Part shown: positions 4,517-32,000 of the stretch, in pieces
Layout of the letters: every line of letters begins with the position of its first letter
How positions within the stretch are numbered: the first letter of the stretch is position 1
NCBI RefSeq assembly: GCF_013520865.1
Contig: NZ_JACDXJ010000001.1
Location: 558,001 to 622,000 of the forward strand
Origin: Microvirga mediterraneensis
GTDB taxonomy: Bacteria > Pseudomonadota > Alphaproteobacteria > Rhizobiales > Beijerinckiaceae
Length of the DNA stretch: 64,000 nucleotides
Reading direction: 5' to 3'
Program-made: the position numbers and the translations under genes
Notes under the pieces: generated by a model
The model's database searches: none
What the model was told of the DNA's origin: nothing
The model's input: the letters and a program-made list of their open reading frames with translations, nothing else

Positions 4517-4585
4517 AAGTCTTCCAGAGGGACCATGAAACTCAAAAAGCTAACGGTTACGCCTTGTCCAAGTTCCTCCCCAGGC

Positions 4586-4880: not shown

Positions 4881-5270
4881 ATGCCGGATTTTGAGATCAC
4901 GATCCAAGTCGCTCAGGACAGGAAGGTGATGGCAATAGAGCTAGCGGCCCTTGGGCGGCCATCACAGCGGCTCATACTTGAGCTTAACGAGCTTGATAGG
5001 CTCATTAGCGAACTCGGCAATGCGAGAAGCCAAATGGTTTCAGAGCAAGCACAGCCTGACCTTGAAAGCGACGAGACCACTATCAGCACGGTTGCAAATG
5101 CAAAGTGGTGTATCCGAGTATCTCCTCCAGCAGTTGCTCTCTTTGCGTTCAACCATCCGAAGTTCGGACCCGTTGGGCTTATGCTTCCAAAAGACCAGAT
5201 CACCAAGATCGTTAGCTTCCTAACGGATCGGTTTATCCTTCAACCAACTCAATCAGTGGAGAAGCATTAG
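4881..5270 (+). CDS. Hypothetical protein (129 residues)
   Basis: No family is recognised. The product has no signal peptide or membrane helix. Residues 1-65 are predicted mixed alpha/beta with an acidic, leucine-rich stretch (LILELNELDRLISELGNA) that could form a short coiled helix. The C-terminal half (IRVSPPAVALFAFNHPKFGPVGLMLPKDQITKIVSFL) looks like a small beta domain with a closing helix. The ATG at 4881 follows a GAGG eight bases upstream. It lies alone on the plus strand between the LexA-like palindrome and the convergent PIN-domain gene, with island-like base composition. Confidence 0.6.
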   Translation: MPDFEITIQVAQDRKVMAIELAALGRPSQRLILELNELDRLISELGNARSQMVSEQAQPDLESDETTISTVANAKWCIRVSPPAVALFAFNHPKFGPVGLMLPKDQITKIVSFLTDRFILQPTQSVEKH

Positions 5271-18546: not shown

Positions 18547-18885
18547 TCAGTCGCAGCGGCGGACCCGCCGCGTCACGGTGCGTCCCCAATCATCCTCCTC
18601 GCGAATGATGATGTTGCGGCAGCGGCTCTCATAACCACCGTAGCGGCGCTCGTCACGCAGCGCATCCCGACGCCCCTCCTCATAGGCGCGGGCGCGATCC
18701 TCCTCGCGCCGCTCGCGCCAGCGTTCGCGACGTTCGTAACGCTCCTGCTCAGGGTCGCGCACGCCAAACTGCGGACGACCATCAGGCCCGATACCGAACT
18801 GGAACTGAGGCTGGGCCAGGGAGGGAGACGCAACGAAAAGACTCGAGCCCATTGTGGCCATGGCCAGGAAAACGATTTTTCTCAT
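18547..18885 (-). CDS. Small secreted arginine-rich protein, paralogue of 16926-17213
   Basis: The 112-residue product has a signal peptide (MRKIVFLAMATMGSSLFVAS...LAQ), the shared FQFGIGPDGRPQFG motif, and a longer charged middle (RYERRERWRERREEDRARAYEEGRRD). It ends with CRNIIIREEDDWGRTVTRRVRRC, parallel to its paralogue. Both cysteines are kept. The charged middle has grown relative to the paralogue, consistent with a rapidly evolving low-complexity linker. The role is unknown; a cell-surface or polyanion-binding protein is possible. Confidence 0.75.
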   Translation of the reverse strand: MRKIVFLAMATMGSSLFVASPSLAQPQFQFGIGPDGRPQFGVRDPEQERYERRERWRERREEDRARAYEEGRRDALRDERRYGGYESRCRNIIIREEDDWGRTVTRRVRRCD

Positions 18886-21089: not shown

Positions 21090-21189
21090 GTGTCATCCCC
21101 GGCGAAGGTTGCGCGGGAAGGGAGCCCATGGCGTGGAGCGTATGGGCGGATTCCCTTCCCCTCCGCTGTGCTCCGGCCGGGAATGACAC
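21090..21189. repeat. Dispersed palindromic repeat, family A
   Basis: A roughly 100-base imperfect palindrome bounded by GTGTCAT and ATGACAC with a GGGAAGGGA...TCCCTTCCC interior. Related copies lie at 30656-30753 and 60467-60576, all intergenic. Confidence 0.75.
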
Positions 21190-21196
21190 ACCGTCG

Positions 21197-23335
21197 TCAC
21201 GACGCGTAACGCTCCTGGGCCTCGGGAGCGCCGGCCTGGTCCGATGTCATGGTCGAGAGCGGGAAGGTGATGACGCAGCGCACACCTGCGGGGGCGAAAT
21301 CGAGCTTGATCTCGCCGCCCAGCTGCTGCGCGAGGCCGCGCTGGATCAGCTTGGACCCGAAGCCCTGGCGTTCGGGCTTCTTCACAAGCGGGCCGCCGCT
21401 TTCGACCCACTCCACGAGAAGCGCGGGCTGCCCGATTCCCGACGTGACGGCCCACATCACATGCACCTTGCCCTCCGGAACGGACAGGGAGCCGTATTTG
21501 ACGGCGTTCGTCGCCAGTTCGTGGACGGCGAGCCCCAAGGCGAGAACGGCGCCCGGCTGCAGGTTGATGCGGGGGCCGCGCAGGCGAATACGTTGCCGCA
21601 GGCCGTCCTGGTAGGGCTCGAGCTCGTTCTTCAGCACGTCTTCCAGAAGCGCGCCCTGCCAATGGGTGGCGGTGAGAAGATCGTGGGTCTTCGCCATTCC
21701 GTGCAGCCGGTCCATGAAGGCGTTCCATGCGGCGGGATCGCTGTTGTCGGCGGAGCGTCTGGTCAGGGAGGCGACCGACTGAACGGTCGCCAGCGTGTTC
21801 TTGACCCGGTGATTGAGCTCATGCAGCAGAAGAGCCTGCCGATCTTCGGCCAGCCGACGCTCGGTGATGTCCTGAGACACGCCGACCATGGAAGGCTGCC
21901 CGTCCGGGCCGCTCCTCATGCGGCCGCTCACCCGGATCCAATGCTCGCTGCCGTCGGGCCAGATCGCGCGATATTCCACGTGAAGATCGGTACGGTCCGC
22001 AAGCGCCCGAGCGACGGCCTCCGCCTGCACGGCGCGGTCGTCGGGATGGATCTGCGCAACGAGATCCGCATAGGAGAACATCTCGTCCGCGCCACGCCCG
22101 AAATGGGCACGGCATATGGGCGTCGTCGTCAGGACGCCCGTGGACGGCGTATACTCCCAGGAACCGAGATGCCCCGCATTGAGCGCCAGGCGCAGGCGCG
22201 CCTCGCTCTCGGCCATGTGGGCGAGCACCTCTTCCCGCTCCCGCTCATGTTTGCGGATGCCCGCGGCCGCCTCCGCAAGCGCCTTCTTGATCGTGTCGAA
22301 CTCCAGAACCCGCGTGGTGGCCGGATCGGAGACTTCGCCTCCACGGCCGAGGGCCTGGGCCGCCGCCACCAGCCGGGCGACCGGCTTGGAAATGGAGCGC
22401 GAGAGCAGAACGGCCAGGAGGATGCCGCCGAGGATGACCGCTCCGAGAATCGTGAGCCAGAAGAGGGAGCGCTGAGCCGATTTCGCCAGCTCCGTCTCCG
22501 GGATGCTGATGACGAAAGACCAGCCATAGGTCGGCGATTGGCTGAAATAGGTGCGCACCGGAATGCCGTCGAGGGTCACGCTCCGGAGAAGCCCTTCCGT
22601 CCGGGCCGCCAAGGCTTCCTGGACATTGGCGCTGGCGAGCTGCCCAACGTAGCGCTCCGGCGACCGGGAGCGCGCCACGAGCCTCCGGCTCCGGTCGAGC
22701 ACCGCCGCGTTCCAGCCGTCGGCGATCCTCTGATCGCGGATGATGTCCTGGAAGACCTCCGGCGTGATCCCGAGCGACAGGATATAGGCGACCCGGCCGT
22801 CGATGATGACGGGGGCATCGATGGTGATGAGCCGCTGCCCCGTCAATGAACCCGCATAGAGATCCGACACATACGGCTTGCGGGTTTCCGCGACGCGCCG
22901 CAACGCATCGGGGCGGTTGCTGTTCGGCAGGATCACGCCGTAAGGCACGCGGGTGTTGAAGACCGCACGCCCGCCGGGTTCGAAAAGAGCCACCCAAGAG
23001 GGCTCCTCCAGACCGCTGGCTTTCGCCCGATGGTAGAATTCCTCGAAGTCTCCTCGGGCAAGGCTGGACGAGTGGGCCAGAATCTGCAGCGCCAGTACGG
23101 ATTTTTCGATTTCGCGGTCGAGCAACAGACTCAAGGCGCGCGCCGTCTCCTGCATGCGCAGATCGGTGGCCTGCTGCTCGGACCGATAGGCCGAATAGAG
23201 GCCTGCCGCAGCCACCAGCATGGTCGGCAGGGCGAGAACCAGGACCAGCCCCCACAGGACCTGCCGCAATGAGGTCCGGGCGCCCTGGGACGGGTCCCCG
23301 GTCGGTCGCACGGAATATGATCTTCGGCCGATCAT
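21197..23335 (-). CDS. HWE-type sensor histidine kinase with Cache, HAMP and PAS domains
   Basis: The 712-residue inner-membrane sensor kinase has a first membrane helix at about 26-48 and a periplasmic Cache-like region to about 290. A second helix (LFWLTILGAVILGGILLAVL) is followed by a HAMP-like segment, a PAS domain near 385-500 (GHLGSWEYTPSTGVL, MVGVSQDITERRLAE) and the kinase core. LLHELNHRVKNTLATVQSVA carries the phospho-acceptor histidine in the HWE-family arrangement, and AVHELATNAVKYGSLS is the N-box. Its ATG directly follows the stop of the upstream receiver-kinase gene with no spacing, so it is the last gene of the phytochrome operon. Such kinases often feed general stress (PhyR) signalling in this order; that link is inferred. 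Confidence 0.9.
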   Translation of the reverse strand: MIGRRSYSVRPTGDPSQGARTSLRQVLWGLVLVLALPTMLVAAAGLYSAYRSEQQATDLRMQETARALSLLLDREIEKSVLALQILAHSSSLARGDFEEFYHRAKASGLEEPSWVALFEPGGRAVFNTRVPYGVILPNSNRPDALRRVAETRKPYVSDLYAGSLTGQRLITIDAPVIIDGRVAYILSLGITPEVFQDIIRDQRIADGWNAAVLDRSRRLVARSRSPERYVGQLASANVQEALAARTEGLLRSVTLDGIPVRTYFSQSPTYGWSFVISIPETELAKSAQRSLFWLTILGAVILGGILLAVLLSRSISKPVARLVAAAQALGRGGEVSDPATTRVLEFDTIKKALAEAAAGIRKHEREREEVLAHMAESEARLRLALNAGHLGSWEYTPSTGVLTTTPICRAHFGRGADEMFSYADLVAQIHPDDRAVQAEAVARALADRTDLHVEYRAIWPDGSEHWIRVSGRMRSGPDGQPSMVGVSQDITERRLAEDRQALLLHELNHRVKNTLATVQSVASLTRRSADNSDPAAWNAFMDRLHGMAKTHDLLTATHWQGALLEDVLKNELEPYQDGLRQRIRLRGPRINLQPGAVLALGLAVHELATNAVKYGSLSVPEGKVHVMWAVTSGIGQPALLVEWVESGGPLVKKPERQGFGSKLIQRGLAQQLGGEIKLDFAPAGVRCVITFPLSTMTSDQAGAPEAQERYAS

Positions 23336-24385
23336 CTAGCCGTTGTCCTGAACCGGCATGACGACACGTACCAGGATGGCGGGATCGTCGAGCGGCCATT
23401 CCACATCCGCATCGAGCTGGCGGGCGAGGGCTTTGAGAATCGTCCCGGACGCGCTGTCCTTCGCATGCTGCTTCTCGTCCGGGCTGAAGGCATCGTCAGC
23501 GATCTGGAACACCAGCGTGCCGTCCACGACCCGCAACAGGAGCTTCAGCTTGCCTTGCCGGTCCTTATAGGCGTGGGTGAGCGCATTGACGACGATCTCG
23601 TTGAACAGGAGCGCCATGGAGGCCGCCTTGCCGGCTTCGACCTCTACGGTATCGATCTCGAATTCCGGCGTGATCCTCACGCCCGGAATCGACGAGGTCA
23701 GTTCCTCGCAAAGACCTTTCGCGAAACGCGACGCGTCGAACCGGGTCGAGCCCTGCCCATCGTAAAGGTCGCGGTGCGCGGCGGCCAGCGCCTGCATGCG
23801 CTCCTTCATGCGCCCGAGCACCTGGCGCGCGGGCCCGTCCTCGGCATGACGATACTCGATGCCGATCAGGGAGAGCAGCAGCTGGAGATTGTTCTTCACC
23901 CGATGATCGAGCTCGTGCAGGAGCGCCGTGCGCTCGTCGAGCATCCGCCGCAGGGCATCCTGCGCCCGCTTCTTCTCGCCGCGTTCGCGGGCTTCGGCCA
24001 GGGCGCGCAGCACGGTGGCGGGCAACCGGTCGAGCTTGTCCTTCAGCACGTAATCCGTCGCCCCGCGCTTCAGGGCCTCGACGGCAACCTCTTCGCCGAG
24101 GGCGCCGGAGACGAAGACGAACGGCGTCGCGCGGGACATCTCCCGGGCGATCTCGAGCGCGTGCAGGCCGTTGAAGGCGGGCAGGAGATAATCGGCGAGA
24201 ATGAGATCCCAGGTCTCGTCGCGGACGGCCCTGGCGAACTCGTCCGCGGACACGACCCGCTCGACCGAGACGGACAACCGGGCATCGACCAGGGTCTCCG
24301 TCACCAGCTCGGCATCGAGCGCGCTGTCCTCCAGGAGGAGGATGCGCAGCACCCGATCGGATGGGATGACGGAAGTGCGGTCCAT
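23336..24385 (-). CDS. Receiver domain-HisKA_2 histidine kinase
   Basis: The 349-residue cytoplasmic protein starts with a receiver domain (ILLLEDSALDAELV, phospho-accepting aspartate in LILADYLLPAFNG, lysine in YVLKDK). A HisKA_2 kinase follows: LLHELDHRVKNNLQLLLSLIG with the histidine, then the ATP-binding N-box LFNEIVVNALTHAY. The glycine-rich end is short but SASGTILKALARQLDAD is in place. It lies eight bases after the single-domain response regulator and directly abuts the next kinase, so it is part of the same operon. It probably receives phosphate from the phytochrome or relays to another regulator; the direction cannot be read from sequence. Confidence 0.9.
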   Translation of the reverse strand: MDRTSVIPSDRVLRILLLEDSALDAELVTETLVDARLSVSVERVVSADEFARAVRDETWDLILADYLLPAFNGLHALEIAREMSRATPFVFVSGALGEEVAVEALKRGATDYVLKDKLDRLPATVLRALAEARERGEKKRAQDALRRMLDERTALLHELDHRVKNNLQLLLSLIGIEYRHAEDGPARQVLGRMKERMQALAAAHRDLYDGQGSTRFDASRFAKGLCEELTSSIPGVRITPEFEIDTVEVEAGKAASMALLFNEIVVNALTHAYKDRQGKLKLLLRVVDGTLVFQIADDAFSPDEKQHAKDSASGTILKALARQLDADVEWPLDDPAILVRVVMPVQDNG

Positions 24386-24393
24386 CGGCAGCC

Positions 24394-24843
24394 TTAAGCG
24401 CCGTTGCGCCGCGGCGGCGGCTCGTTGAGGATCGCCCAGAACACGCCGAGGTCCTGGATCGCGTCGAAGAACTCGCGGAAGCCCACGGGCTTCACCACGA
24501 AGGCGTTCACGCCGAGCTCGTAGCTGCGCACGAGATCACTCTCCTCCCGCGACGAGGTGAGCATGACGACCGGGGTCTGACGCAGGTGCGGATCCGCCTT
24601 GACCTTCTCCAGCACCTCGAGCCCGTCGACCTTCGGCAGCTTCAGGTCGAGCAGGACCACGGCCGGATCGCTGGTGTTGCGGCTCTCATGAGCACCGCGG
24701 CGATAAAGGAAGTCGAGCGCCTCCTCGCCGTCGCGCACCACGACGACTTCGTTGGCGAGCTGGCTCTGCTCCAAGGCGGCCAGCGTCAGTTCGAGATCCT
24801 TCGGGTTGTCCTCAACCAGAAGAATCGGCTTCAGTTCCGCCAT
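24394..24843 (-). CDS. Single-domain response regulator of the phytochrome (Rcp1-like)
   Basis: The 149-residue protein is a stand-alone CheY-like receiver: acidic pair in LLVEDNPKDLELT, phospho-aspartate in AVVLLDLKLPKVDGLEVL, threonine in VVMLTSSREESD and lysine in AFVVKPVGF. The extended loop with VRDGEEALDFLYRRGAHESR is typical of the Rcp1/BphR subfamily that dimerises and takes phosphate from bacteriophytochrome kinases. Its ATG follows the bphP stop with zero spacing (TGAATG), consistent with coupled synthesis of kinase and cognate receiver. Confidence 0.93.
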   Translation of the reverse strand: MAELKPILLVEDNPKDLELTLAALEQSQLANEVVVVRDGEEALDFLYRRGAHESRNTSDPAVVLLDLKLPKVDGLEVLEKVKADPHLRQTPVVMLTSSREESDLVRSYELGVNAFVVKPVGFREFFDAIQDLGVFWAILNEPPPRRNGA

Positions 24844-27084
24844 TCACGCGGCTCCTTCGTTCTGATCCGGCAGGGCGATGGAGAAGGTCGCTCCCTTGTC
24901 GAGCGCGCCTTCGGCCCAGGCCCGGCCTCCATGTCTTTCGACGATCCGGCGGACATTGGCGAGCCCGATCCCGGTTCCTTCGAATTCTTCCATCCGGTGC
25001 AGGCGCTGGAACACGCCGAACAGCTTGTCGATGTACTTCATATCGAACCCGACGCCGTTGTCGCGCACGAAATAGACCGTCTCCCCATCCTTGCGGGTGG
25101 AGCCGATTTCGATGCGCGCTTTCTCCCGGGTGCGGGTGTACTTTACCGCATTGTCGAGCAGGTTTTCAAAGACCAGCCGGATCAGCACCGGGTCGGCATT
25201 CACCGGGGGCAGCTCTCCGACGATCCACTGGATCCGGCGGTCGCCCTGTTCCGCCGAAAGCTTCTGCCGGATCTCGTCGACGAGGCGACCCACGTCCACG
25301 GTCCGGGGCTTCAGGGCCGTGCGGCCCATATGGGAGAAGCGCAGCAGGTTATCGACCAGGGTTCCGGCCGTGTAGGCCGCCTCGATGATCGTGTCGACGT
25401 AGCGCTGGCCCTTCTCGGACATCTCGCCCGCTTCCTGCTTCTTCAGCAGCTCGGAATAGCCCACGATATGACGGAACGGGGCGCGCAGGTCGTGGGAGAC
25501 CGAATAGGAGAAGGCCTCCAGCTCCTTGTTGGAGCGGCGCAGCTCCTCCGTGAGCGCCGCCATCTCTTCGGCCCGGCGCAGCACGATGCCCACGATGGCG
25601 TTGCGCAGCTCCTTGACCGCCTCGACCTCGCTTCGGTCCCAGGGCAAGGAGCGGTCCCGCACCGTCTCCTTCCAGATCTCGAAGGAGCGCCGGGGATGAA
25701 GCCGCAAGGACCCCGCCTCCTCCTGGACGGGCTTCTGCGGATTGCCGCCCCATTTGACGGTCTGCTCGACCTCGGGACGGAACCAGAGCACATAGCTCGA
25801 ATGTGCCTTCGAGACGGAGATGGAGAGAAGCCCGCTCGCCCGGTCGGCGAAGGCCTTCGCCGCCGGATAGACCTCCGACAGGTTGTCGGTGGCGAAGACG
25901 TCCTCCTGATGATGTTCGGAGAGCCAGTCGAAGAGCGCCCTCACCTGCTCCTTGCCGGGGGCATGGCCGAGGCACCAGCAATGGTCCTGCGTGATGACGG
26001 CGGCGCCCTGCGCGCCGGCGAGCATCATCAGGTCGTCGGGATGGTTCACGAGGCCCGCGATGAAATGCTCCTCGGCCGCCATATGGGCGAGAAGCCGCGT
26101 CTGCACGGCGCCGAGGCGCACGCGGTTCTCGGCCAGCATCGTGTTCTCCCGCGCCTCCAGCTGCAGCGAGAAGATCTGCGTGAGGAAGTCGCAGGCGTTG
26201 CGCACCTGGAGAGAGACCCGCTTCGGCTCCTTGTTGTGGCAGGAGATCAGGCCCCACAGCTGGCCGTCGCGCAGGATGGAGATCGACATGGAGGCGAGCG
26301 TCCCCATGTTGCGCATGTATTCGAGATGCACGGGCGAAACGCTGCGCAGCACCGAGTCGCTCAGGTCCAGCGGCGCGGGATCGTGCGACTGGATGGGAAC
26401 GGGCGTGTAGCCGGCATCGGGAATGATGCGCAGCCGGTTGCGGCGGTAGAGCTCCCTCGCCTGGGCCGGGATGTCGGATGCCGGAAAGCGCAGATCGAGG
26501 TAGGACGGCAGCACCTCGTTGCGGTCCTCGGCCACGACGGTGCCGTTCCACTGCTCGTCGAACCGGTAGACCAGCACCCGGTCGAAGCCGGTCATGCGGC
26601 GGATGTCCTGCGCGGCCAGGCCGCACAGGACGTCGATGGTCGACGCGCTCTGCAGCTGCTCCACGAACCGGCGCAGGGTGGGATAGAGCGCATCGATGCT
26701 GGAGATCGACCCGACGGGAGGCTCCTCCAGTTCGAGGATCGCGCACTCGCCCGAGCGGGAAATCGCCGTCTCGAAGAAGCGCTCATCCTGCGCCGTCCTG
26801 ACCCGGATGGTCCGGACGAAGCGTGTGTTTCCCGCCGTCGGCGGATCGGCGAGCTGAGCGTCGAATTCCGTGCTCAGGGCCGGCAGCACCTCGGCGAAAG
26901 GCCGGCCGAGCACGTCGGCCGCCTGGAAGCCGAAGACCTCGGCGATATTGGCGCTCGCATAGGCGATCGTCCTGTCGGACAGGCGGATCGCGAGAAGGAT
27001 TCCGTGCGGCTGGATGTTGCCCGGAATGTGGATCGGCTCCCGCTCGCAGGCGGTCAGGTCGATGTCTTGCGTTTGCAGGTTCAT
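24844..27084 (-). CDS. bphP: Bacteriophytochrome histidine kinase
   Basis: The 746-residue red/far-red photoreceptor kinase has the PAS-GAF-PHY-kinase order. The biliverdin-binding cysteine is C13 (DLTACEREPIHIPG), upstream of the PAS domain as in bacterial phytochromes. The GAF domain has DRVLVYRFDEQWNGTVVAE and the PASDIP motif. The PHY region ends near 500, the kinase histidine is in FSYSVSHDLRAPFRHI, and ATP-binding LLDNAVKYT and DNGVGFD follow. The start at ATG 27084 overlaps the bphO stop in an ATGA arrangement and is preferred to a start at 27102. The light-driven kinase probably acts on the following Rcp1-like regulator. Adjacent bphO supplies its chromophore. Confidence 0.97.
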   Translation of the reverse strand: MNLQTQDIDLTACEREPIHIPGNIQPHGILLAIRLSDRTIAYASANIAEVFGFQAADVLGRPFAEVLPALSTEFDAQLADPPTAGNTRFVRTIRVRTAQDERFFETAISRSGECAILELEEPPVGSISSIDALYPTLRRFVEQLQSASTIDVLCGLAAQDIRRMTGFDRVLVYRFDEQWNGTVVAEDRNEVLPSYLDLRFPASDIPAQARELYRRNRLRIIPDAGYTPVPIQSHDPAPLDLSDSVLRSVSPVHLEYMRNMGTLASMSISILRDGQLWGLISCHNKEPKRVSLQVRNACDFLTQIFSLQLEARENTMLAENRVRLGAVQTRLLAHMAAEEHFIAGLVNHPDDLMMLAGAQGAAVITQDHCWCLGHAPGKEQVRALFDWLSEHHQEDVFATDNLSEVYPAAKAFADRASGLLSISVSKAHSSYVLWFRPEVEQTVKWGGNPQKPVQEEAGSLRLHPRRSFEIWKETVRDRSLPWDRSEVEAVKELRNAIVGIVLRRAEEMAALTEELRRSNKELEAFSYSVSHDLRAPFRHIVGYSELLKKQEAGEMSEKGQRYVDTIIEAAYTAGTLVDNLLRFSHMGRTALKPRTVDVGRLVDEIRQKLSAEQGDRRIQWIVGELPPVNADPVLIRLVFENLLDNAVKYTRTREKARIEIGSTRKDGETVYFVRDNGVGFDMKYIDKLFGVFQRLHRMEEFEGTGIGLANVRRIVERHGGRAWAEGALDKGATFSIALPDQNEGAA

Positions 27085-27647
27085 GAGGTCTCGCACAGCC
27101 AATCATGCATTACGGTGAAGGTATCTCGTGCGGCCCCGACGATCAGGTCGTCGGCCTCCGGCGACGAGGCTTCCAGGAGCACTGCGCCGAACGACTTCCA
27201 CATGGCTGCAACATTTCGTCCATAGCTGCGGAAATAGGCGCAGCCCGTTTCCGCCGTCAATCCAAGCCGGTTCTCCACTTCGCGCGCGATGATGGCACCG
27301 CCGAGCGTGGAGCCCTCGACCACATACATGCTCCCCAGCACCGCCTCCGGGGCGGGCAGGGGCATGAGAGGACGGCATTGTGGCAAACCCATGATATCGT
27401 CAGATTTTAGTCCTAGAGCCTCGAGATCCCTGGCGAGAAGCCTCGTCTTGCAGCGGCTTTCGAAGAAGGCCCGGTCTGGCGCCCGCTCGGCGGCCTCGCT
27501 TTCCCAGGCCGCGTGGAATCCATGGAAGCGGATCAGCAGGTCCCTATAGGCCTCGCGCGACGAGATCCGGCCGTCGAGATCCATGGCGGCCTCGATCCGG
27601 TCGTGGGCGTCCCGGGTTTCGATCTTCAATCGTTCGAGAAGCGTCAT
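27081..27647 (-). CDS. bphO: Heme oxygenase for phytochrome chromophore
   Basis: The 188-residue enzyme opens heme to biliverdin, the bilin cofactor of BphP. The proximal heme histidine is in ETRDAHDRIEAAMDL, and the distal helix region is VVEGSTLGGAIIAREVENRLG. Length fits bacterial BphO proteins. Its ATG overlaps the stop of the permease gene by four bases (ATGA), and its stop overlaps the start of bphP by four bases, so it is translationally coupled on both sides. This position inside a transporter operon is unusual. Confidence 0.93.
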   Translation of the reverse strand: MTLLERLKIETRDAHDRIEAAMDLDGRISSREAYRDLLIRFHGFHAAWESEAAERAPDRAFFESRCKTRLLARDLEALGLKSDDIMGLPQCRPLMPLPAPEAVLGSMYVVEGSTLGGAIIAREVENRLGLTAETGCAYFRSYGRNVAAMWKSFGAVLLEASSPEADDLIVGAARDTFTVMHDWLCETS

Positions 27648-28399
27648 GACACCTCGTCCGCAGGGCGGCCCAGCTTTCCGGCGACGAACCGCTCGGCCAT
27701 TCCCAACCCGTCGTGGATCAGAACGGCGAGCAGCGCAACCACCAAACCGCCCTGCAGCACGAATGCAACATTGTTGGATTGAAGGCCCGCGATGATCACT
27801 TCGCCCAATCCCTTGGCCGCCACCGTCGACCCGATGGTGGCGGTGCCGAGACTGATGATCACCGAGAGCCGGATGCCCGCGAGGATCACCGGAAGCGCGA
27901 GCGGCAGCTCCACCTGGAACAAGCGCTGGCGCGGGTTCATGCCCATGCCCTTGGCGGCTTCGAGCGTCTGCGGCGACACTTCCATCAGGCCCGTGAGCGT
28001 GTTCTCGAAGGTCGGCAGGAGCCCGTAGAGAAACAGCGCGATGAAGGTCGGCTTCTCGCCGAAGCCGACGAGCGGCACGGCGATCGCCAGAACGGCGACG
28101 GGCGGGAAGGTCTGGCCGATATTCACCAGGCTGCGCGACAGCGGCAGGAACTCGCGGCCCGAGGGCCGCGTGACGAAGATGCCGAGCCCGAGCGCCAGAA
28201 TGGTGCTCGCGAGCGTCGCCAGGAACACGATGCGCAGATGCGAGAGGGTCAGGGAGAGCAGGCTGCCCTGGTTGTAGATCGCCGGCGCGCCGTTCGCGGT
28301 CAGCGGCTCGAACGCGAAGGCGAACAGCTGCGGCGCCGTGATGAAGAGCGCCAACAGCACCAGCGCCGCCGCGCGCCAGAGCAACGAACGCCCGGTCAT
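27644..28399 (-). CDS. yehW: Osmoprotectant ABC transporter permease (YehW-like)
   Basis: The 251-residue inner-membrane permease has about six helices and the binding-protein-dependent transport motif EAAKGMGMNPRQRLFQVELPLALPVILAGIRLS, which couples to the ATPase. Length is close to E. coli YehW (243). It is the second permease of a glycine betaine/carnitine-type importer whose gene order (binding protein, long permease, ATPase, short permease) matches E. coli yehZYXW. It overlaps the ATPase gene and bphO by four bases each. Confidence 0.88.
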   Translation of the reverse strand: MTGRSLLWRAAALVLLALFITAPQLFAFAFEPLTANGAPAIYNQGSLLSLTLSHLRIVFLATLASTILALGLGIFVTRPSGREFLPLSRSLVNIGQTFPPVAVLAIAVPLVGFGEKPTFIALFLYGLLPTFENTLTGLMEVSPQTLEAAKGMGMNPRQRLFQVELPLALPVILAGIRLSVIISLGTATIGSTVAAKGLGEVIIAGLQSNNVAFVLQGGLVVALLAVLIHDGLGMAERFVAGKLGRPADEVS

Positions 28400-29334
28400 G
28401 GAACGGACCGTCCATGCGCCACGATGCCTTGCACGCTGACGCGACCCACGAGAGCGCCCGACGTATCGGCGACGGGCAGCGTCTCCCGGCCCGACCAGAT
28501 CAGCCGCGAAAGCGCATCCCGCAGGGAATCGGTGACGAGGACGGGCTCTCCCTCGGCAGCTCCGGGTTCGAGGGCCTCGCGCACCTTCAGCAGGGATAGG
28601 AGACGGAAAGGCCGCTCCGCCGTTCCCACGAGCTGCTCGACGAAGGCCTCCGCCGGTCGCGTGAGCAGCTCGGCGGGCGTCGCGTATTGCAGGAGCCGTG
28701 CCTGATCCATCACGGCGATCCTGTCGCCGAGCTGGAACGCCTCGTTCATGTCGTGCGTGACGAGAACCACCGTGGTGCCGAGACGGCGCTGGATGGCGAC
28801 GAGATCGTCCTGTGCCTTGCTGCGGATGACCGGATCGAGCGCGCCGAACGGCTCGTCCATCAGCAGCACCGCGGGCTTTGCCGCCAAGGCGCGCGCGACG
28901 CCGACGCGCTGCTGCTGCCCGCCGGAGAGTTCGTGCGGGAATTTCTTCGCGAACTCCACCGGGTCGAGCTGGAACAGGTCGAGCAGTTCCTCGACGCGCG
29001 CCGCGCTCTTCCGTTTGTCCCAGCCGAGAAGACGCGGCACGGTGGCGATGTTCTCGGCGACCGTACGATGAGGAAACAGCCCGTAGCCCTGGATCACGTA
29101 GCCGATCCGGTGGCGCAGCTGATCCTCAGGGATCGCCATGGTGTCCTGGCCGTCGATGAGCACGCGGCCCTCGCTCGGTTCCACGAGCCGGTTGATCATG
29201 CGCAGCAGGGTCGACTTGCCCGCACCCGACGTGCCGACCACGACGGTGATCGTGCCCTCGTCGACCCGGAGGGACACGTCGTCGACGACGATCGTGTCGC
29301 CGTAGCGCTTGGTGAGATGCTCGATCTCGATCAT
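28396..29334 (-). CDS. yehX: Osmoprotectant ABC transporter ATP-binding protein (YehX/OpuCA-like)
   Basis: The 312-residue ATPase has Walker A VGTSGAGKST, Q-loop RHRIGYVIQGYGLFPH, signature HELSGGQQQRVGVARAL, Walker B VLLMDEPFGALDP and switch histidine THDMNEAF. After about residue 245 comes a single CBS-like regulatory segment (ETLPVADTSGALVGRVSVQGIV), as in the OpuA/OpuC family, which can sense ionic strength. Length matches YehX (308). The ATG at 29332-29334 overlaps the upstream permease stop by four bases. Confidence 0.93.
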   Translation of the reverse strand: MIEIEHLTKRYGDTIVVDDVSLRVDEGTITVVVGTSGAGKSTLLRMINRLVEPSEGRVLIDGQDTMAIPEDQLRHRIGYVIQGYGLFPHRTVAENIATVPRLLGWDKRKSAARVEELLDLFQLDPVEFAKKFPHELSGGQQQRVGVARALAAKPAVLLMDEPFGALDPVIRSKAQDDLVAIQRRLGTTVVLVTHDMNEAFQLGDRIAVMDQARLLQYATPAELLTRPAEAFVEQLVGTAERPFRLLSLLKVREALEPGAAEGEPVLVTDSLRDALSRLIWSGRETLPVADTSGALVGRVSVQGIVAHGRSVP

Positions 29335-30497
29335 GGAGTGCCCCGCCGGGTCAGATCGATGATCGCATCGAGGATGATGGCGGCGGCGAACGACAGGGCG
29401 ACCGTGGGTATGGCGCCCAGGAGCACGAGGTCGATCGCCGTCTGGCCGATTCCCTGGAACACGAAGGTGCCGAAGCCCCCTCCCCCGATCAGCGCCGCCA
29501 CGGTGGCCAATCCGAGGTTCTGCACCAGCACGATGCGGATGCCGGCGAGGATGACCGGCAGCGCCAGCGGCAGTTCCACCAGCCACAGGCGCTGGCGCGC
29601 GGACAATCCCATGCCCCGCGCCGCATCCGTGACAGTCGCCGGCACCTGCCGCAATCCGGTGACCGTGTTGGCGACGACCGGCAGCAGCGAATAGAGGAAG
29701 AGCGCGATGAAGGCGGGCGCGGCCCCGATGCCGCGAATGCCTAAGGCCGCCGCCAGGGGCACATGGGCCGCGAGATAACCGAGCGGCGCGATCAGGATGC
29801 CGAAGAGCGCGATGCTCGGAACCGTCTGGACGATGTTGAGCACCTGCAGGATCGCATTGCGCAGCCGCGGGACACGATGGCCGAGAATGCCCAGCGGCAG
29901 ACCGACGAGGCAGGCGGCGATCATCGAGCCGAACGCCAGCCACAGATGCTCGCGCGCCTCGCGCCAGAAGGTGGCCGCCCGGCTCGCATATTCCTTGAGC
30001 AGCGAGAGGTTGTCCCAGGCTCCCGAGACGAGCAGCAGCGCGATCGCGCCCGCCGCCACCGCGAGGGCGGCGAGCCGCGCCCAGGGAGAGAGGCGCAGCC
30101 GCGTCAGCGCATCGGCCGCCAGCAGCGCGAAGGCCAGGGCCAGGAGCCAGAAGCCCAGGGACGGCGAGACACGCGCGAAAGTGTTCCCGGGCGGCGTGAC
30201 GAACCCGGCCGATGATCCGACGGCGGGAAAGATCACGCACAGGCCGATGGACGCGGCAGCGAGGCGGATCAGCGGCGCGCGGACCAGGGCCGCGCACAAG
30301 GCCGTGCCGAGCGCCACCGCCATCACGCCGAGGGCGCCCGAGGACGGCAGCGCATCGACCAGCATGCGCCCCTCGCCGGCCACGATGCGGTTGGCCCGGT
30401 AGATGACGAAGGGCGAAGCGAAGAGCGCAACCAGGATCAAGATGGCGATCACGCTCCCAAGCCGATCCAGGGACAGGGAGGAACGCAACGAGGACAT
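29331..30497 (-). CDS. yehY: Osmoprotectant ABC transporter permease with extra N-terminal helices (YehY-like)
   Basis: The 388-residue permease from ATG 30495-30497 has an N-terminal block of about five additional helices (VIAILILVALFASPFVIY, GVMAVALGTALCAALVRA, LGFWLLALAFALLAADAL), then the transport domain with DAARGMGLSARQRLWLVELPLALPVILAGIR. Length is almost that of E. coli YehY (385). The open frame continues upstream to 30800, but that part runs through dispersed repeats and is rejected. It is the first gene after the 415-base gap from the binding-protein gene and begins a chain of overlapping genes. Confidence 0.88.
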   Translation of the reverse strand: MSSLRSSLSLDRLGSVIAILILVALFASPFVIYRANRIVAGEGRMLVDALPSSGALGVMAVALGTALCAALVRAPLIRLAAASIGLCVIFPAVGSSAGFVTPPGNTFARVSPSLGFWLLALAFALLAADALTRLRLSPWARLAALAVAAGAIALLLVSGAWDNLSLLKEYASRAATFWREAREHLWLAFGSMIAACLVGLPLGILGHRVPRLRNAILQVLNIVQTVPSIALFGILIAPLGYLAAHVPLAAALGIRGIGAAPAFIALFLYSLLPVVANTVTGLRQVPATVTDAARGMGLSARQRLWLVELPLALPVILAGIRIVLVQNLGLATVAALIGGGGFGTFVFQGIGQTAIDLVLLGAIPTVALSFAAAIILDAIIDLTRRGTP

Positions 30498-30606
30498 GCC
30501 GGGCACGGTCGTTCGGGAAGAGATCGTCGTCACAAAGTTTCCGGCCCTTATCGCAGCGTCTGGGTCATGAGAATACGGTTCACAGATCTCTCCCTCATTC
30601 CGCTTC

Positions 30607-30753
30607 GTCATCACCGGCCTTGTGCCGGTGATCCCGATTGTTTGAAGCGTCATCAGTGTCATTCCCGGCCGAAGCGCAGCGGAGGGGAAGGGAATCCATA
30701 GCGCGACATATGAAAGTGGATCCCCTTCCCGGCCTTTCGGCCGCCGGGATGAC
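30607..30753. repeat. Composite of dispersed repeats (family B half-copy plus family A copy)
   Basis: 30607-30652 is a half-copy of family B (GTCATCACCGGCCTTGTGCCGGTGAT, then CCCGATTG). 30656-30753 is a family A copy (GTGTCATTCCCGGCCG, GGGGAAGGGAATCCA, TGGATCCCCTTCCC, CCGGGATGAC). They fill most of the 415-base gap between yehY and osmF; the remainder shows nothing else. The potential long hairpin may reduce transcription from osmF into yehY. Confidence 0.75.
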
Positions 30754-30912
30754 AGCGGAGAGCCTTTCCGTATCGGGATGGCCGGCAGGAGGCCGGCCAT
30801 GACATGGAGGTCTCACTTTCGAGCCGGATACCGGGAGCAGCCTGACTGCGTCTCGGAGGAGCCCCGGTGTTTCACGGGAAACGCCTTCACCGGCTGAAAC
30901 CACGACCTCAGA

Positions 30913-31827
30913 TCACTTCAAAAAGCCCTTGGACTTCAGGTAATCCGTCGCCACCGCCTTGGCGGGCTCGCCACCGACCTGGACGCGGGCGTTGAGGCCC
31001 TGGAGCGTGGTGAGGTCGAGGGATGCGAAGACGGGCTTCAGGATCTCGGCGATCTTCGGGTTCTCCTTCAGGGCGGATTCGCGGATGATCGGCGCCGGGG
31101 CATAGACCGGCTGCACGTTCTTGTCGTCTTCCAGCACCGTGAGACCCGACGGGGCGATGCCGCCGTCGGTGCCGTAGACCATGGCCGCGTTGGCCCCGTT
31201 GGTCTGCTCGGCCGCCGCCTTGATGGTGGCCGCCGTGTCGCCGCCGGAGAGCACGATGAGCTGTTCCGGCTTCATCTTGAAGTTATAGGTCTTCTGGAAG
31301 GCCGGCAGGGCCGCATCCGAGTTCACGAATTCGGCGGAGGCGGCCAGCACGACCTTGCCGCCCTTCGTGACCCACTGGCCGAACTCGGACAGGGTCTTCA
31401 GCTTGTTGGAATCGGCCACGTCCTTGCGCAGGGCGATGGCCCAGGTGTTGTTGGCCGGCGAGGGATCGAGCCAAACGATCTTGTTGGCATCGTAATCGAG
31501 CTTCTTGGCCGTCTCGAAGCCCTTGGCCGCGTCCTTCCAGACCGGATCGTCCGCCTTGTTGAAGAAGAAGCCCGCATTGCCGGTATATTCGGGATAGATG
31601 TCGATCTCGCCCGCCGTGATCGCTTTGCGCACCACAGGGGTCGCGCCGAGCTGGATCCGGTCCTGCGTCTTGATGCCGTTGGCCTCGAGGGTCAGCAGGA
31701 TGATGTTGCCCAGGACCGAGCCTTCCGTGTCGATCTTCGACGAGACGACCACGTCGGCCCTGGCGGCGCCCGCCCCAGCGAGCGCCAGCGCGGCGGCAAA
31801 GGTGAGCGATGTGAGGACGGTCTTCAT
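30913..31827 (-). CDS. osmF: Glycine betaine/osmoprotectant substrate-binding protein (OsmF/YehZ-like)
   Basis: The 304-residue periplasmic protein has a signal peptide (residues 1-24, ending AARA) and the OpuAC-type substrate-binding fold. VVVSSKIDTEGSVLGNIILL and AGEIDIYPEYTGNAGFFF are the family motifs, and TDGGIAPSGLTVLEDDKN lies in the second lobe. Length equals E. coli OsmF (305). AAGGGG precedes the ATG by seven bases. It is the first gene of the importer unit, with the permease/ATPase genes 415 bases downstream on the same strand. In E. coli the orthologous system is induced in stationary phase and osmotic stress. Confidence 0.93.
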   Translation of the reverse strand: MKTVLTSLTFAAALALAGAGAARADVVVSSKIDTEGSVLGNIILLTLEANGIKTQDRIQLGATPVVRKAITAGEIDIYPEYTGNAGFFFNKADDPVWKDAAKGFETAKKLDYDANKIVWLDPSPANNTWAIALRKDVADSNKLKTLSEFGQWVTKGGKVVLAASAEFVNSDAALPAFQKTYNFKMKPEQLIVLSGGDTAATIKAAAEQTNGANAAMVYGTDGGIAPSGLTVLEDDKNVQPVYAPAPIIRESALKENPKIAEILKPVFASLDLTTLQGLNARVQVGGEPAKAVATDYLKSKGFLK

Positions 31828-32000
31828 GCGAAACCCCTTGAGAAACCTTGCCCGGCTGGTTTTAGGACAGCCGGACCGTTAGGGCAGGGGGGAGCGTCAT
31901 GAAGAATGAAGCCGGAGCACAAAAACTTCGCGGACCGGCAAAAGATCCCGCCGAAGGAATTTTCATCCTCCGGCGGGGCGACCGTTCTAGCGGCCCCGGC

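Follow-up and report, generated by a model that had tools for sequence, protein, structure and literature searches.

A bacteriophytochrome module joined to an osmoprotectant importer gene train in the genus Microvirga

Why bacteria that do not photosynthesize should sense light has long been an open question. Studies of Pseudomonas syringae and Ramlibacter link bacteriophytochromes with water stress. In P. syringae, water-stress functions are reportedly raised through a bacteriophytochrome ahead of drying (Hatfield 2023, as described in PMC12627116), and heme oxygenase is co-transcribed with the bacteriophytochrome in the bphOP1 unit, beside which the available part of that account places neither a partner regulator nor an importer (PMC5654926). 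Ramlibacter tataouinensis, an organism of semi-arid soil, has a putative operon hmuO-RtBphP1-RtBRR-RtBHK; phytochromes govern the division of its rods, and the authors suggest that light warns of desiccation to come (PMC6848086). Its genome is said to lack opu-type betaine importers (PMC3164672). Importers of the YehZYXW type have been reported to stand under the general stress response in alphaproteobacteria.

The locus described here lies in a window of 64,000 nucleotides (the whole stretch of DNA that was analysed), which is part of the 5.35 Mb assembly of Microvirga mediterraneensis. It shares with Ramlibacter the order heme oxygenase, bacteriophytochrome, CheY-like partner and hybrid kinase, as well as a non-photosynthetic dry-land host, a likeness by gene order. 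Unlike the Ramlibacter module, which stands without an importer in the text available, the Microvirga block forms the tail of a yeh operon and includes an extra HWE kinase. As in the P. syringae bphOP1 unit, heme oxygenase and bacteriophytochrome are very likely transcribed together in Microvirga. Plasmid p4 of Azospirillum brasilense encodes a BphP 54% identical to that of the window, with genes for a response regulator and a PAS-domain protein after it; the 14 kb stretch concerned contains neither an importer nor an annotated heme oxygenase. The importer itself has the four genes of YehZYXW/OsmF systems in the same order, with OsmF at equivalog level; it differs from other such systems in being followed by a photosensory block and in having no EcfG-type site before osmF.

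No paper on a yehW-bphO or light-osmoprotectant junction was found in an open-access library. Both modules are separately known, and judging from the genes the new part is the physical join of the light module to the osmoprotectant importer. Genome evolution in Microvirga points in a similar direction to the work on the other two organisms.

Anatomy of the gene train

Nine genes follow one another on the minus strand of the window in the order osmF-yehY-yehX-yehW-bphO-bphP-response regulator (RR)-receiver-kinase-HWE kinase. The features of the locus are as follows.

31947..31977, minus strand: terminator-like hairpin before the operon (terminator scan; 3 sites found, 6.0 expected from shuffles)
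31860..31887, minus strand: promoter-like two-block element CTGYC-N16-CCTARA, 60 bases before the osmF ATG (alignment)
31827-30913, minus strand: osmF/yehZ, substrate-binding protein (Pfam, NCBIfam, solved-chain comparison)
30605..30803, no strand: REP-like palindromic stretch in the osmF-yehY interval (repeat analysis)
29331..30533, minus strand: yehY, permease; start at GTG 30533 or ATG 30497 (Pfam)
29334-28396, minus strand: yehX, ATPase (Pfam)
28399-27644, minus strand: yehW, permease (Pfam)
27644..27647, minus strand: ATGA overlap of the yehW stop and the bphO start; the same overlap in 33 of 39 linked genomes of the genus
27647-27081, minus strand: bphO, heme oxygenase (PF01126)
27084-24844, minus strand: bphP, PAS-GAF-PHY-HisKA-HATPase bacteriophytochrome with Cys13 and His531 (Pfam, alignment)
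24843-24394, minus strand: single-domain RR of phytochrome-partner type with Asp66 (Pfam, solved-chain comparison)
24385-23336, minus strand: receiver-kinase, a receiver plus HisKA_2/HWE kinase with Asp65 and His161 (Pfam, alignment)
23335-21197, minus strand: HWE histidine kinase with PAS and His509; dCache and HAMP matches below their cut-offs (Pfam, alignment)

The sequence-only reading of this DNA had joined the importer and the light genes in one train, and this view is supported: Pfam agrees with each gene name given there, and the spacings it listed were all exact on re-reading. These are overlaps of four bases (ATGA) at yehY/yehX, yehX/yehW, yehW/bphO and bphO/bphP, 0 at bphP/RR, 8 at RR/receiver-kinase and 0 between the receiver-kinase and the last, abutting HWE kinase. 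The placement of osmF just upstream of yehY was also borne out, with a nuance: in the window this is the loosest junction, with 379 bases to the yehY GTG and the REP-like stretch inside, and among 30 relatives in which the gap was measured it spans 19-63 bases in 22 and 217-308 bases in eight. REP-like repeats flank the yehYXW-bph train (30605-30803 and 21090-21189), and a 19-mer is common to the former stretch and 21153-21171 (two matches in the window, 0.08 expected).

The importer genes encode a binding protein, permease, ATPase and permease in the order Z-Y-X-W. OsmF scores 515.7 bits against the NCBIfam OsmF equivalog NF049931 (cut-off 400), and its closest solved chains are 5teu and 5uve, which we take to be of Brucella origin. 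The predicted importer is therefore of the YehZYXW/OsmF type and would take up glycine betaine or a like solute.

The light genes follow the HO-BphP-BRR-BHK module order: heme oxygenase, BphP, single-domain RR, receiver-kinase. BphP has PF08446, PF01590, PF00360, PF00512 and PF02518 all above cut-off, i.e., PAS-GAF-PHY and a histidine kinase; against the NCBIfam equivalog NF041576 it reaches 362 bits for a cut-off of 1040 and so falls outside that family's particular subgroup. The closest solved chains of the RR are 5brj and 5ic5 (presumably AtBRR and RtBRR), followed by RcpA and Rcp1, which makes it a phytochrome-partner type. The positions that we take to be chromophore and catalytic residues are invariant in all genus rows in which the alignment covers them: Cys13 of BphP, presumably the N-terminal biliverdin-binding Cys, in 39 of 39; His531 of BphP, Asp66 of the RR, Asp65 and His161 of the receiver-kinase and His15 of BphO in 38 of 38 each; and His509 of the HWE kinase in 36 of 36.

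One genome (G013, locus L031) has its bphP frame interrupted after about 519 codons and keeps the rest of the operon. The genome of the window encodes a second bacteriophytochrome, 37% identical, in a 731 aa frame (C6:3683-5755, L002); the 3.5 kb covered there contains none of the partner genes.

The yehW-bphO junction in Microvirga and beyond

We searched 48 Microvirga genomes twice, starting from BphO and from OsmF. In 39 of them, namely the window, 32 named loci (L003-L034) and six more genomes (L053-L056, L058, L059; L057 and L011 are one locus, counted once), yehW and bphO are direct neighbours, so the junction is not a feature of this strain only. When genome contigs were scanned with BphO, identities were 63-96% for the 32 Microvirga loci, in all of which yehW lay directly upstream of bphO, and 32-40% for six other loci. 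The yehW/bphO spacing is -4 in 33 of the 39 and a gap of 67-108 bases in the other six (L026, L029, L031, L032, L053, L054), while bphO/bphP is -4 in every named locus (the bphP start offsets of L054, L058 and L059 come from alignment ends and were left out of the counts). All nine genes lie on one contig in 34 of the 39; L010, L012 and L016 are cut by contig ends, and the last kinase is absent or incomplete in L033 and L053. The outer neighbours are more variable: of 32 loci, some of them truncated where a contig stops, 18 show isocitrate lyase upstream and 26 show an amidase downstream. In L012, L014, L017, L018, L021, L025, L027 and L030, another OsmF-like protein (48-50% identity) is encoded on the upstream side of osmF, at a distance of a few kb.

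A close OsmF (at least 82%, window included) is present in 46 of the 48 genomes; the best matches are 51% in G018 and 49% in G034, a fragmented assembly. BphO of at least 49% is found in 41 of 48, a 30% match in G004 and no match in six genomes. These six (G003, G008, G010, G011, G030, G043) have no PHY domain anywhere and no light block after yehW, and all of them keep the importer, which is therefore independent of the light block. In G011 the amidase gene, which elsewhere follows the last kinase, comes directly after yehW; the five light genes are thus missing together there. In G018 and G021 a PHY domain occurs elsewhere in the genome: the bphP-RR-kinase block of G021 is located away from the importer, and G018 has its phytochrome and a distant importer apart. 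A fortieth genome, G004, has yehW followed by bphP, the RR and both kinases, without bphO at that place (locus L042: yehW ends at 5001 and bphP lies at about 5091). Since its sole BphO match is the 30% relative on another contig, its biliverdin supply may differ. The retention of the arrangement in most of the genus suggests that Microvirga ties light sensing to coping with drying.

Outside Microvirga the two modules occur singly. Nine stretches (L064-L072) have yehZYXW alone. The bphP-RR-receiver-kinase set occurs without the importer in ten others, with bphO beside it in L035, L073, L075, L088 and L091 and with no bphO in the stretch seen in L081 (of G021, a Microvirga genome), L086, L087, L089 and L090. 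Among 199 genomes of the family (ten of them Microvirga), bphO lay within 20 kb of osmF in none outside the genus, as read by hand, the nearest case being 32 kb apart (G227). Among 347 genomes of the order, 31 besides the window encode both proteins (E <= 1e-60), and none of the 31 has them fused into one train, with three BphP candidates scored per genome and the two genes on different contigs in many drafts. Two of the 31 have both modules less than 10 kb apart (G529, 2.6 kb and divergent; G276, 7.9 kb), against about 0.15 such neighbours expected by chance, a rough estimate with a 10 kb line that was set after looking. In G529, which belongs to another family of the order, the heme oxygenase and phytochrome kinase genes diverge from yehZYXW at 2.6 kb (L084, 7735-16264), and the intervening gene, read by eye, is histidine-ammonia-lyase-like; this is perhaps a second, looser juxtaposition of the two modules.

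The history of the junction was followed on two trees, both from quick searches, with some forks open and a program warning of long branches. On the importer tree (OsmF, YehX and YehW; 55 rows, 46 from the genus and nine from outside; L010 and L016, which have no osmF, were left out), five changes are needed to explain the linked state, and unlinked lineages (G030; G003 with G043; G011) are nested among linked ones. On the BphP tree (48 rows), in which no branch set the chosen outgroup apart on a side of its own, all 38 BphPs linked to yeh genes group together (SH-aLRT 99), and the stand-alone G021 protein (L081) and two relatives of the same family branch off just outside. Distances of BphP and importer agree (Spearman 0.89, 37 rows), which fits joint inheritance. 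The two known modules were probably joined once in Microvirga, and a single joining followed by several losses is the simplest reading of the trees.

Control and possible role of the train

From its anatomy, co-transcription of the whole train is very likely. We regard the train as a stress operon in which a pre-existing red/far-red module was placed behind yehZYXW and its light signal would serve drying tolerance, a reading to which we assign a probability of roughly 0.55. It is supported by the gene order, the tight junctions, the conservation in the genus, the joint absence of the light genes and the invariant catalytic residues, as well as by the single BphP group with its matching importer distances and by the precedents from P. 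syringae and Ramlibacter. Counted against it are the nested lineages with the importer and without the block (G030; G003 with G043; G011), the separate modules in G021 and G018, and the lack of an EcfG-type site.

The promoter-like element before osmF bears on the main alternative. In its strict form it occurs in 28 of 38 linked rows, in four of seven unlinked genus rows and in none of five upstream regions from outside the genus, the pattern having been drawn from the same alignment on which it was scored. A shuffle control gave one in 10,000, which for a pattern from the same sequences shows rarity only. Given its presence in unlinked genus upstreams, the element belongs to the importer, and the light block was apparently brought under its control. 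The block could then be using the importer promoter as a handy source of transcript for an unrelated job, and the linkage would persist since a cut would leave the block promoterless. This explanation, which also draws on the six genomes that keep the importer and have no phytochrome, we consider a fair rival, though less likely than the stress-operon reading: outside the main clade, the 67-108 bases before bphO leave room for a promoter of its own, whereas the main clade has the four-base overlap in 33 of 33 (L010 and L016 not being on the tree). A single change from gap to overlap suffices on the importer tree, with the yehW-bphP gap of G004 scored as a gap, and is compatible with this alternative too. 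A regulon of the element was considered and rejected, its matches in the window's genome being one (osmF itself) versus two for the reversed control.

It is improbable that bphO and the genes after it form a second, abutting transcript with its own promoter inside yehW and an overlap due to genome compactness: a short SD-like sequence (GAGG or GGAGG) stands before bphO in 20 of 32 loci, six genomes have the gap, and the block must own a promoter where it occurs alone, but the coding strand has a sigma-70-like match inside bphP (25169-25140; two matches in the region, 0.8 expected) and none near bphO, and synonymous conservation in the last 20 yehW codons is not raised (0.55 versus 0.59 overall), both being weak tests, the latter with six sites. 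A bphO promoter hidden in the end of yehW was accordingly dropped as a candidate. No terminator-like site was found on the coding strand inside the operon, which says little because the scan found fewer sites in all (3) than shuffles did (6.0). The translational coupling of bphO to yehW that had been proposed is plausible; it is not compelled, given the SD-like sequence, absent in 12 of the 32 loci, and the gap in six of the 39. No structured RNA reached the gathering score at 19-34 kb of the window.

Under the stress-operon reading, light and osmotic cues would exert cross-control over the operon. A promoter before osmF would drive all nine genes, and photoreceptor levels would then rise under the same conditions that demand uptake of compatible solutes. 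BphO would make biliverdin, which would attach to Cys13 of BphP, and light would alter phosphorylation at His531 and transfer to Asp66 of the RR. The signal would pass to the receiver-kinase and, with the second HWE kinase, most likely enter the stress signalling of the cell, for which NepR and PhyR/EcfG-like genes are present. Daylight may in this way ready cells for drying while the importer supplies solute. A more specific version, which we advance tentatively, is photo-anticipatory osmoprotection: red/far-red light acting through BphP and the kinases would prompt solute loading before drying, and water stress would in turn make the cell more sensitive to light, the two inputs forming a loop on a single messenger. 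The idea is testable in culturable strains, with relatives that have the importer and no phytochrome as natural comparisons.

Genes of the general stress response

HWE kinases often feed PhyR. For this reason, and with yehZYXW known under the general stress response, EcfG-type sites were searched. None was found in 31 osmF upstream regions or on the coding strand of the operon, so the stress-sigma route of other yehZYXW operons is not supported here; the motif is poorly specific, the 3.1 kb phyR/nepR stretch alone having seven matches with spacers of 15-20. HWE/HisKA_2 kinases and core general-stress genes are both present in the window's genome, and any link of the operon to this response would have to go through protein signalling. 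The genome has four NepR matches (L060-L063), and one NepR gene adjoins phyR- and ecfG-like ORFs (read by eye), with GGAAC-N16-CGTT ahead of the phyR-like ORF. In the window, the same EcfG-type motif occurs on the minus strand at 18941-18917, before a small secreted-protein-like ORF (18547-18885, minus strand), and a further match lies at 4576, also on the minus strand.
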